Source: Verrucomicrobiota bacterium (GTDB lineage: Bacteria > Verrucomicrobiota > Verrucomicrobiia > Chthoniobacterales > UBA10450). Taken from it: DNA of 64,000 nucleotides. A model generated the notes under the pieces. It saw only the letters and a list, made by a program, of their open reading frames with translations. It was not told the origin of the DNA and searched no databases. Made by a program: the position numbers and the translations under genes. Location: assembly GCA_003218375.1 (NCBI GenBank), contig QHNH01000016.1, positions 83,979 to 147,978 of the forward strand. Direction: 5' to 3'. Positions 5,515-45,541 of this stretch are shown here, one piece after another; positions within the stretch are counted from its first letter, which is position 1, and each line of letters opens with the position of its first letter.

Positions 5515-6258
5515 ATGGGAAAACAGGACAAGGAACTTTGGCAGGGACTAACCGCGGAAGCGCAAAAGGCCCTGGTCATGCGCGATTACGCGCCGCAATC
5601 TTTCGCGGACCGATTAGCCGGGGCCGGAATCGAAGCCGGCAAGCTCGCGTCCGCCGATCGCACTACTGCCGAGAACCGCGAAGTCTGGATTCCGGGCGTC
5701 GAGATTTTTCCGCGCCCGATTCATTTTCAACGGCATCGCGGCGTCTTCGGCGAATTCGTCCGGCGCGATGATGGGGTGCTCCAGCGCATCGGGTTTTGGC
5801 CGGCCCAATGGGCTAACGCGCGGATGTTCGCGCAGACCGCGAAAGGCTTTCACGTTCATCCCCCGAGCATCCCGGACGGAACGAAACCGGAAGATTGGAT
5901 GCGCCGCCTGTTCATCGATGAGCCGGAAAATTACGCGCTGCGGCGTTACGCCCACGAACAATGGGACGTGATGTTTTTCGTCCAGGGCGTCGCCGAGATG
6001 ATCCTGCGCGATGTGCGCGCCGGATTGCCCACGCGGACCATGCGCTTCTTTGTCGATGGCGATAATCATCCCGGCGCGAATAACGTCGGGATCGTGGTGC
6101 CGCCGGGGATCGCGCACGCCATTCGGGTCGAAGGTTCCGAGGACGTGATCATGGTTTACGGAACGAGCACCTCGTTTCACCCCGAGTTCGAAGGCCGCAT
6201 CGCGAGTGAAATTGAAACGGCCGCGCTGCCGGAATCGTGGCAAACGTTTTTGGATTAA
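5515..6258 (+). CDS. Cupin protein related to dTDP-4-dehydrorhamnose 3,5-epimerase
   Basis: A 247-residue protein starting 18 bases after the glycosyltransferase and probably in the same transcript. The central part resembles RmlC: GVFGEFVR, RIGFWPAQWANARMF, then KGFHVHPP with a catalytic-type His. A second beta-barrel stretch ends in PPGIAHAIRVEG. RmlC enzymes invert C3 and C5 of a keto-sugar nucleotide during rhamnose synthesis, which would suit its place beside a polysaccharide glycosyltransferase. Length and motifs differ enough from true RmlC (about 185 residues) that a related sugar-nucleotide isomerase role is safer than naming rhamnose synthesis. Confidence 0.75.
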   Translation: MGKQDKELWQGLTAEAQKALVMRDYAPQSFADRLAGAGIEAGKLASADRTTAENREVWIPGVEIFPRPIHFQRHRGVFGEFVRRDDGVLQRIGFWPAQWANARMFAQTAKGFHVHPPSIPDGTKPEDWMRRLFIDEPENYALRRYAHEQWDVMFFVQGVAEMILRDVRAGLPTRTMRFFVDGDNHPGANNVGIVVPPGIAHAIRVEGSEDVIMVYGTSTSFHPEFEGRIASEIETAALPESWQTFLD

Positions 6259-43709: not shown

Positions 43710-45092
43710 TTTTCCGTAGCTCACCCGCCAGATTGTTTTGTTCGCGTCTTCGCTGAAGAGCAGGCTGCCATCTTTAGCCACGGTGATACCGACCGGGCGC
43801 CCCCACACATTTCCTTCCGGCGTCACGAACCCGGTCACGAAATCTTCGTAATCGCCGCGCGCTTTCCCGGTCGCTTTGTCGAAAGGGACGCGCACGATTT
43901 TGTATCCGGTGCGCCGCTCGCGGTTCCAGGAACCGTGGAACGCGGCGAAAATGTCGCCTTTGTATTCCGCGGGAAACTGCGCGCCGTCGTAGAAGCAAAG
44001 ATTCAACGTCGCGGAATGACTTTGCACGAGCACGTCCGGCACGAGGACCTTTGATGCGAGCTCGGGATGCTTGTCTTTGTGCCGCGGGTCCTGGTGATTC
44101 CCGAGGTAGAACCACGGCCAGCCGTAAAACCCGCCGCGCTGGACGCTGCTGATGTAATCCGGCACGAGGTCTTCGCCCAGCTCGTCCCGCTCATTCGTGC
44201 TCATCCAAAGGTCGTTGGTCCCAGGCCGGAACTTGATGCCGACCGCGTTCCGGATTCCCCAGGCGAAAACATTTTGGCCGGTGCCGTCGGGATTGAACTC
44301 GAAGATGCGGGCGCGATCGGCTTCGGCGGCGTTGTCCGAAGCATTCGAGAGCGAGCCGATCGAGACATACATTTTTTTCCCGGCCCGCGAGAACGCGATG
44401 TCGCGTGTCCAATGCCCGCCGCCGCGCAGAAGTCCACCACCGGAAAGCTCGGCACTCAATTTCTCCGCGGGCCCGCGCGCCTTCGTGTCGCCGTTCCGGT
44501 AGGGAAACCGAACGATGCCGTTGGTGTTCGCCACGTAGAGGAATTCCGGCTCGGCGCCCGGCGGATAAAACGCGATCCCAAACGGTTTGTTCATCCCGCT
44601 GTTGGCGAACGTTTCCGTCAGGTCGGGTTTCCCGTCGCCGTTGGTATCGCGCAAAACCTTTACGCTATTTTCATTGCTCTCGGTCACGAAGATGTCGCCG
44701 TTCGGGGCGGTGAGGAGATAGCGCGGGTAAGAAAACCCGCTCGCATATTGCTCGACCTTAAAACCGGCCGGCACCCGCAGCTCCGCCCCCGCCGGCCGGC
44801 GCACTTCTCGCGGACTGTTCGACGTTGATTTCGTCGCGTACGGCGCTGGCAGATCCTGAAGGGTAATTTTGTGGCGAACGCCGGGAGCGTCTTGATGCCA
44901 GTCGGCGTCAGGTGGAGCAAGAGGCGCTTCGGCAAAAAGTGAGCTTGCAGCAATGAGGGCTATGAATGCCGAAGCACGAATGACGAATGACGAAGGAATG
45001 AACAAATGACGAATGACAAATCGAGCAGCCGCTTTTCGGGTTTCGGGCTTCGTCATTGTTTCGGCATTCGTCATTCGTGCTTCGGCATTCAA
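43707..45092 (-). CDS. PQQ-dependent sugar dehydrogenase (sorbosone dehydrogenase-like), exported
   Basis: A 461-residue six-bladed beta-propeller enzyme. Landmarks are VPAGFKVEQYASGFSYPRYL, NGDIFVTESN, DTNGDGKPDLTETFAN, GGHWTRDIAF, FAWGIRNAVGI and FAAFHGSWNR; these fit soluble glucose/sorbosone dehydrogenases that use PQQ. The N-terminus is odd: codons 1-43 come from the repeat element at 44963-45090, whose translation (FVIRHLFIPSSFVIRASAF) joins AFIALIAASSLFA to form the signal peptide. Possible starts are TTG 45092, ATG 45074 and ATG 45056, all inside the element. The substrate is not established. Confidence 0.85.
   Translation of the reverse strand: MNAEARMTNAETMTKPETRKAAARFVIRHLFIPSSFVIRASAFIALIAASSLFAEAPLAPPDADWHQDAPGVRHKITLQDLPAPYATKSTSNSPREVRRPAGAELRVPAGFKVEQYASGFSYPRYLLTAPNGDIFVTESNENSVKVLRDTNGDGKPDLTETFANSGMNKPFGIAFYPPGAEPEFLYVANTNGIVRFPYRNGDTKARGPAEKLSAELSGGGLLRGGGHWTRDIAFSRAGKKMYVSIGSLSNASDNAAEADRARIFEFNPDGTGQNVFAWGIRNAVGIKFRPGTNDLWMSTNERDELGEDLVPDYISSVQRGGFYGWPWFYLGNHQDPRHKDKHPELASKVLVPDVLVQSHSATLNLCFYDGAQFPAEYKGDIFAAFHGSWNRERRTGYKIVRVPFDKATGKARGDYEDFVTGFVTPEGNVWGRPVGITVAKDGSLLFSEDANKTIWRVSYGK
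44963..45090. repeat. Paired inverted element, CGAATGACGAATG type, inside a coding region
   Basis: The first 26 bases (GAATGCCGAAGCACGAATGA, then CGAATG) are an exact inverse of the last 26. The arms continue with variations of the same six- to eight-base words. The element runs through the first 43 codons of the sugar dehydrogenase and ends where the yraN stop begins. Its amino-acid reading, FVIRH..SSFVIRASAF, is a recurring intergenic translation in Verrucomicrobial genomes as far as I recall. Confidence 0.8.
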
Positions 45093-45541
45093 TAAATGTA
45101 CGGCTCGGGCAGCGAGAATGCGTTCTGAATAAGCTCAAATCGCGGCTCGGTTCCTTCCGCGATAATCACCTCGACGACATCGAAGCGGAACAGGATATCG
45201 GGGTCATCGAGGAGACGCAGCCAGGCCAGGCCACCGCGCGAAATGCGTTTCCGTTTGTCGCGATCGATCGCCTCGAAAGGCCGGCCGAAATCTTCGCGCG
45301 TCCGCGTTTTTACCTCGACGAAAACGAGAGTGTCGCGCTCGCGGCAGACGACATCGATTTCGCCGCCGGTGCGTCCGCGGAAATTACGATACAGGATTTT
45401 GTAACCGTTCCTCCGCAGGAACCGGCAGGCCAGGTTCTCCCCTCGCGTCCCAAGCCGCAGATGCCGGGGAGGCGAACTCGAAGAGCGGTTGCGCCACCGG
45501 TTCGAAAGATCGGCGATGAATCGGACAAGGTCCGTGCTCAT
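45089..45541 (-). CDS. yraN: YraN/UPF0102 family endonuclease-like protein
   Basis: A 150-residue protein of the YraN family, predicted to have a PD-(D/E)XK nuclease fold: GTRGENLACRFLRRNGY, NFRGRTGGEIDVVCRE and LVFVEVKTR with the catalytic Asp, Glu, Lys. The biochemical role is unknown. Its ATG at 45541 lies 158 bases inside the upstream rnhB gene in another frame. A shorter start is possible because the family core begins near residue 26. rplS-rnhB-yraN order is widespread in bacteria. Confidence 0.88.
   Translation of the reverse strand: MSTDLVRFIADLSNRWRNRSSSSPPRHLRLGTRGENLACRFLRRNGYKILYRNFRGRTGGEIDVVCRERDTLVFVEVKTRTREDFGRPFEAIDRDKRKRISRGGLAWLRLLDDPDILFRFDVVEVIIAEGTEPRFELIQNAFSLPEPYIY

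Follow-up and report, generated by a model that had tools for sequence, protein, structure and literature searches.

REP and REPIN elements are short stem-loops of 20-40 bp with one end bearing an unpaired tag, GTAG or CGTC, and repeats lying at the N-termini of proteins are often dismissed as misannotated starts. Such elements are present in bacterial genomes in high copy, are palindromic, mostly intergenic and placed between co-directional genes near the upstream stop, and sometimes provide the stop codon itself. REP-type repeats have also been described at the N-termini of ORFs, where many are suspected to be non-coding, with translation possibly starting downstream, and N-termini of Rickettsia proteins decorated with the element RPE-1 have been reported to be expressed in vivo (PMC3733652). 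In-frame fusions of RPEs, palindromes of about 150 bp, have been reviewed, as have bacterial MITEs, short non-autonomous inverted repeats that are able to create in-frame fusions (PMC10969869). The literature searched on palindromic repeats, start codons and signal peptides of Verrucomicrobia yielded no description of the element reported here.

The window, i.e. the whole stretch of 64,000 nt that was analyzed (G000:C42:83979-147978), belongs to the genome, G000 (3.96 Mb in 52 contigs), of an uncultured soil bacterium of the Verrucomicrobiota, whose relatives are Chthoniobacterales/Spartobacteria metagenome bins. It includes a gene of the glucose/sorbosone dehydrogenase (GSDH) family, here called gsdh, which follows yraN and is separated from it by a palindromic repeat. 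It is likely that this repeat now provides the start codon and the front of the signal peptide of gsdh, as it would in at least four other genes of the same genome, all for exported or membrane proteins.

The yraN-gsdh junction in the window and in relatives

The repeat copy fills the yraN/gsdh junction (Table 1), with 39-nt arms that are 92% complementary and spaced 51 nt apart. It is predicted to fold very stably, as RNA (-73.9 kcal/mol, z = -7.3 vs. dinucleotide shuffles) as well as DNA (z -9.3), and an Rfam search at the junction gave no match. Its core 18-mer has five occurrences in the window with at most three mismatches, against 0.1 expected. The yraN stop is in its native position and the repeat begins immediately after it. 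Translation of the repeat, RFVIRHLFIPSSFVIRASAF, continues in frame into IALIAASSLFAEAP, as the initial annotation had noted in describing an element whose hydrophobic translation merges with a native segment. The open frame taken alone is weak evidence and was dropped as proof of selection, because this copy is open in two of its three sense frames and shuffling gives an open frame in 12% of trials.

Table 1 Features of the yraN-gsdh junction and repeat copies that provide the sole usable starts of four other genes
Feature	Position	Strand	Remarks
yraN (YraN/UPF0102), gene upstream of gsdh	45089..45541	-	stop (..EPYIY*) positioned as in relatives
gsdh, GSDH-family gene, longest reading, 461 codons	43707..45092	-	Pfam PF07995, 49 bits vs. 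cut-off 25
Dispersed palindromic repeat, 129 bp, full-length member of the heptamer-armed family	44963..45091	-	repeat search, ~45 genomic loci, consensus alignment
First-transcribed arm	45053..45091	-	initial three bases are the yraN stop codon
Inter-arm region	45002..45052	-	centre is the most variable part among copies (consensus alignment)
Second arm	44963..45001	-	stop-free in all sense frames here; gsdh frame reads PSSFVIRASAF
Candidate start TTG 45092	45090..45092	-	one base outside the repeat; overlaps yraN TGA (TTGA); 54-residue leader
Candidate start ATG 45074	45072..45074	-	codon 7; 48-residue leader
Candidate start ATG 45056	45054..45056	-	codon 13 (MTKPETRK...); 42-residue leader; n-region net charge +5
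Candidate start TTG 45005	45003..45005	-	codon 30 (MFIPSSFVIR...); 25-residue leader; between main arms
Native-derived signal-peptide tail IALIAASSLFA	44931..44963	-	predicted cleavage before EAP; aligns with G001 FIALTCAAPLWA^EPT tail
Copy at BamE-like lipoprotein gene	L111:9820-9936		sole usable starts
Copy at T2SS-G pseudopilin gene	L126:2980-3062		sole usable starts
Copy at PstA-like permease gene	L127:3006-3108		sole usable starts
Copy at GH26 lipoprotein gene	L129:3030-3162		sole usable starts

The Pfam match of the gsdh product covers residues 221-384 and exceeds the curated cut-off, which places it with the glucose/sorbosone dehydrogenases. Comparison with PDB gave weak similarity to PQQ-dependent sugar dehydrogenases (best E 1e-6, a putative oxidoreductase), and the designation "sugar dehydrogenase" used initially appears to hold only as a family-level name.

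Adjacency of yraN and gsdh on the same strand is kept in several independent genomes of the same genus and family. In G002, G003, G004, G013, G021 and others, gsdh lies close behind yraN and has its own start and signal peptide (e.g. TACTAGCATGGCACTC in G002 and TACTGATGAGATTG in G013). The junctions of G002, G003, G004, G013 and others are without this repeat and gsdh retains a native ATG there, which in the clearest orthologues stands 0-6 nt past the yraN stop. The segment that follows the repeat in the window aligns with FIALTCAAPLWAEPT of G001 and with the tail of MKLRSVALLVSGSASLLLAAEP of G006. By this alignment gsdh of the window lacks its native start together with about five codons of the n-region, a figure estimated from G006, and its h-region and cleavage site are native. 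The initial suggestion that an intergenic repeat replaced the original start agrees with the orthologues, but the site is an operon junction of nearly zero length and not a long intergenic region.

In G001 a different palindrome (GGAGCGGCGGTTTG...CAAACCGCCACTCC, with NN in the middle) occupies the same yraN/gsdh junction (G001:C32, L137 ~5898-5936; L032), and gsdh of that genome is without an obvious ATG, only a TTG being in frame. This palindrome may represent a second insertion there that took place independently. No gsdh was detected in the congeners G005 and G007, and members of the genus may thus be able to do without the gene.

A family of heptamer-armed repeats

In the whole genome 195 matches to the core 18-mer were counted with at most two mismatches, the reversed control giving none, and about 45 related loci were recognized in G000 by whole-element search and motif scan, the copies being surveyed from fetched stretches of the genome. 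The consensus of 18 full-length copies, about 120-135 bp long and fully paired, starts with AATGACGAA and ends with TTCGTCATT; it consists of AATGACGAAGCACGAATGACGAATGACGAA..AATGACGAAGCCCGAA, a variable centre and the matching second arm. The arms are made of GAATGAC/GTCATTC heptamers. In a perfect (GAATGAC)3 array each frame contains a TGA, but (TTCGTCA)3 has no stop and reads FVIRHSS, SSFVIRH or RHSSFVI, so that the repeat tends to stop an incoming reading and to be open to an outgoing one, on either strand.

Within the genus the distribution of the repeat is patchy, a related 18-mer being counted 123 times in G000, 77 in G005, 24 in G004, 21 in G006 and 7 in G002, with none in G001, G003 and G007. 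Of the 38 copies scored in G000 on approximate, codon-usage based gene calls, 32 have co-directional neighbours, 3 have divergent and 0 convergent ones, with 3 unplaced; the respective numbers in G005 are 18, 1, 5 and 2. In G000 and G005 alike the upstream stop precedes the repeat by a median of 3 nt, and the next in-frame start (or stop) downstream follows it by a median of 10 and 7 nt, respectively. At most copies the downstream gene retains its start a few bases past the repeat, and in about a dozen (offset -6) the upstream gene is apparently ended by the first GAATGA of the repeat itself. Nearly all copies in G000 and G005 sit at very short junctions between tandem genes, where they often seem to provide the upstream TGA. 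No conserved insertion target was obvious by eye in the flanks of the copies.

Another genome of the order, G080, gave 354 matches to the reversed, non-complemented control pattern, which suggests that it harbours another family of repeats with heptamer arms (CTTACTG-like). Three IMG/VR contigs (L295, L296 and L297) match the repeat exactly over a 25-mer; they may be bacterial fragments classed as viral.

Candidate start codons and probable repeat-derived leaders

Four in-frame starts are available to gsdh at the repeat (Table 1), and the next ones are GTG 44804 (codon 97) and GTG 44774 (codon 107). The initial claim that all plausible starts lie in the paired element is thereby confirmed, with TTG 45092 protruding by one base. 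Codons 66-96, which precede GTG 44804, have pS values of 0.67-0.81 and pN values of 0.14-0.21 in comparison with G001, G006, G002 and G003, and judging by these values this segment is under purifying selection. Because these codons are conserved and no in-frame ATG, GTG or TTG is found between the repeat and codon 97, translation of gsdh very probably begins inside the repeat.

Because the native start of gsdh adjoins the yraN stop, translational coupling to yraN is likely, and it would favour TTG 45092, ATG 45074 or ATG 45056. The three longer leaders, of 42-54 residues, exceed the usual length of a Sec signal peptide; TTG 45005, between the main arms, would give the most typical length. No Shine-Dalgarno sequence was obvious by eye, and the hairpin, whose first-transcribed arm holds two of the candidates, is very stable.

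Assessed by hand, the gsdh leader has the features of a Sec signal peptide: a basic n-region, with a charge of +1 to +5 depending on the start chosen, an h-region with a mean hydropathy of 2.28 (vs. 1.70-2.72 in orthologues) and a predicted cleavage site, SLFA^EAP, that aligns with LWA^EPT of G001. The repeat appears to supply the start, the n-region and at most the first residues of the h-region, while IALIAASSLFA^EAP, comprising the h-region and cleavage site of native origin, survives. The earlier proposal that the repeat became part of a signal peptide can thus be narrowed to the front of that peptide, the h-region tail and cleavage motif being native.

Four further genes of G000 have no usable start outside a copy of the repeat, encoding a BamE-like lipoprotein (fusion reading ..SFVIRHSSFVICLLALIFALAAC), a GH26 lipoprotein (..SFVILHSSFVILAVSCLAIVAC), a T2SS-G pseudopilin (..MTKRECSSFVIRHSSFRAASA/FTLVELL) and a PstA-like permease. 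The starts of the GH26 gene are only GTG and TTG, one TTG lying at the very edge of the repeat. Repeat-free orthologues have native starts, such as the pilin MAKHRTHSAFTVVELL in G002 and BamE MTHLLKHAARFLSLVTIVTVLACAVTAC in G001. The BamE-like fusion is common to G000 and G005, with a remnant, MSSFVIFLLA, in G006, and the GH26 fusion is common to G000, G005 and G004; among the genomes compared, the pseudopilin and permease fusions occur in G000 only. The two shared fusions are not brand-new, since the coding bodies of G000 and G005 differ by a dS of 0.67 (BamE) and 1.26 (GH26).

In post hoc classes of small size, an in-frame ATG lies within the repeat in four of the five start-lost copies, the BamE copy having been classed by hand and added, vs. 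4 of the 28 copies whose downstream gene kept its start (Fisher p = 0.008). With the same reservation, the products of all five start-lost genes, classed by family and orthologues, are exported or membrane proteins, vs. 10 of 30 others (p = 0.009); this enrichment is only suggestive, since an automatic hydropathy threshold gives p = 0.07-0.21.

Could the insertion instead have silenced gsdh, with loss of the native start, an accidental reading across the repeat and a gene that became a pseudogene only very recently? The two open sense frames may be fortuitous, the hairpin could block translation, and the failure to detect the gene in the close relatives G005 and G007 would fit a dispensable function. 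We nevertheless regard silencing as unlikely, considering that all 461 codons of the ORF are intact and the whole gene has a pairwise omega of about 0.05-0.09 in comparisons with G000, that the 8% divergence of the arms fits an insertion that is not brand-new, and that like fusions persist across species. Nor does the G000 branch carry an excess of nonsynonymous changes: polarised synonymous and nonsynonymous changes number 62:14 in G000, resembling 67:17 in G001, so no relaxed selection is visible, and the insertion could be too recent for relaxation to show.

Initiation downstream of the repeat, at GTG 44804 or at a rare start such as an ATT in the h-region, would leave the repeat outside the protein, as is thought for many N-terminal REPs elsewhere, where shorter homologues start downstream (PMC3733652). 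It is highly improbable for gsdh, given the lack of an ordinary start before codon 97; beginning there would forfeit the signal peptide together with the selected codons 66-96, and the ATT would leave no n-region. Least credible of all is an artefact of the metagenome bin, joined through a high-copy repeat. The assembly does consist of 52 contigs, the repeat is multicopy and G001 has an NN gap inside its own palindrome at this junction, yet the repeat is only ~129 bp long, and a chance misjoin is hard to reconcile with a gene order that several independent genomes share. A real fusion appears to be the best reading, on account of the orthologues with native starts, the absence of another start, the selection on codons just downstream and the four parallel genes.

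Proposed origin and relation to known repeats

We propose that a mobile or once-mobile palindromic repeat inserted between yraN and gsdh, at an operon junction of almost no length, and either took the place of the native gsdh start and a few n-region codons or displaced them. The gene would have been kept in use because the leaving arm is stop-free in the sense frames and encodes a basic-hydrophobic FVIRHSS-like string, and because the repeat offers in-frame ATG and TTG codons. Initiation would then occur inside the repeat, probably by re-initiation past the yraN stop, for which ATG 45074, ATG 45056 and the overlapping TTG are candidates, or else at TTG 45005, and the repeat-encoded n-region would join the surviving native h-region and cleavage site to form a chimeric Sec signal peptide.

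More tentatively, the heptamer palindrome may be a recurrent, portable donor of start codons and leaders, whose start-destroying insertions are tolerated mainly in genes of exported and membrane proteins because the N-termini of these can absorb a basic-hydrophobic string. If this were true, signal-peptide n-regions would have been repeatedly replaced in this lineage. For the rebuilding of export signals from dispersed repeats, gsdh offers a concrete case that is open to test, and annotation pipelines and signal-peptide predictors should treat starts of this kind with caution in genomes of Chthoniobacterales.

In its placement the repeat resembles REP and REPIN elements, being of high copy, intergenic and rarely found between divergent genes. 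It differs from them in its greater length of about 100-135 bp, in its 7-bp units and in being tight on the downstream start as well. Identity with tagged REP/REPIN elements was rejected, as the consensus is too long and its fully paired ends are without an unpaired GTAG or CGTC. Y1_Tnp (RAYT-like) genes give 12 matches in G000 and are also carried by repeat-free genomes. No repeat copy was found beside Y1_Tnp/RAYT genes at the loci inspected in G000 and relatives (L086, L134 and L135 among them), and among those of the 12 that were inspected a link to a RAYT transposase found no support. Terminal inverted repeats are shared with MITEs; no autonomous partner or transposase of the repeat was found, and a target-site duplication was not identified, no available empty site being close enough in sequence to define one.

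A close parallel is RPE/RPE-1 of Rickettsia, dispersed palindromes read in frame into unrelated proteins, and sequence comparison supports such a reading for five genes here. The Rickettsia elements belong to another lineage, the heptamer-armed sequence is unrelated to them, and RPEs are inserted within existing coding sequence, whereas the present repeat lies at operon junctions and would give the start codon and n-region. Palindromic repeats at N-termini are known from RPE-1, and what appears to be new is the recurrent donation of a start and a leader n-region, by an element that would behave as coding repeats of the RPE type do, with the difference that it acts on the start codon.
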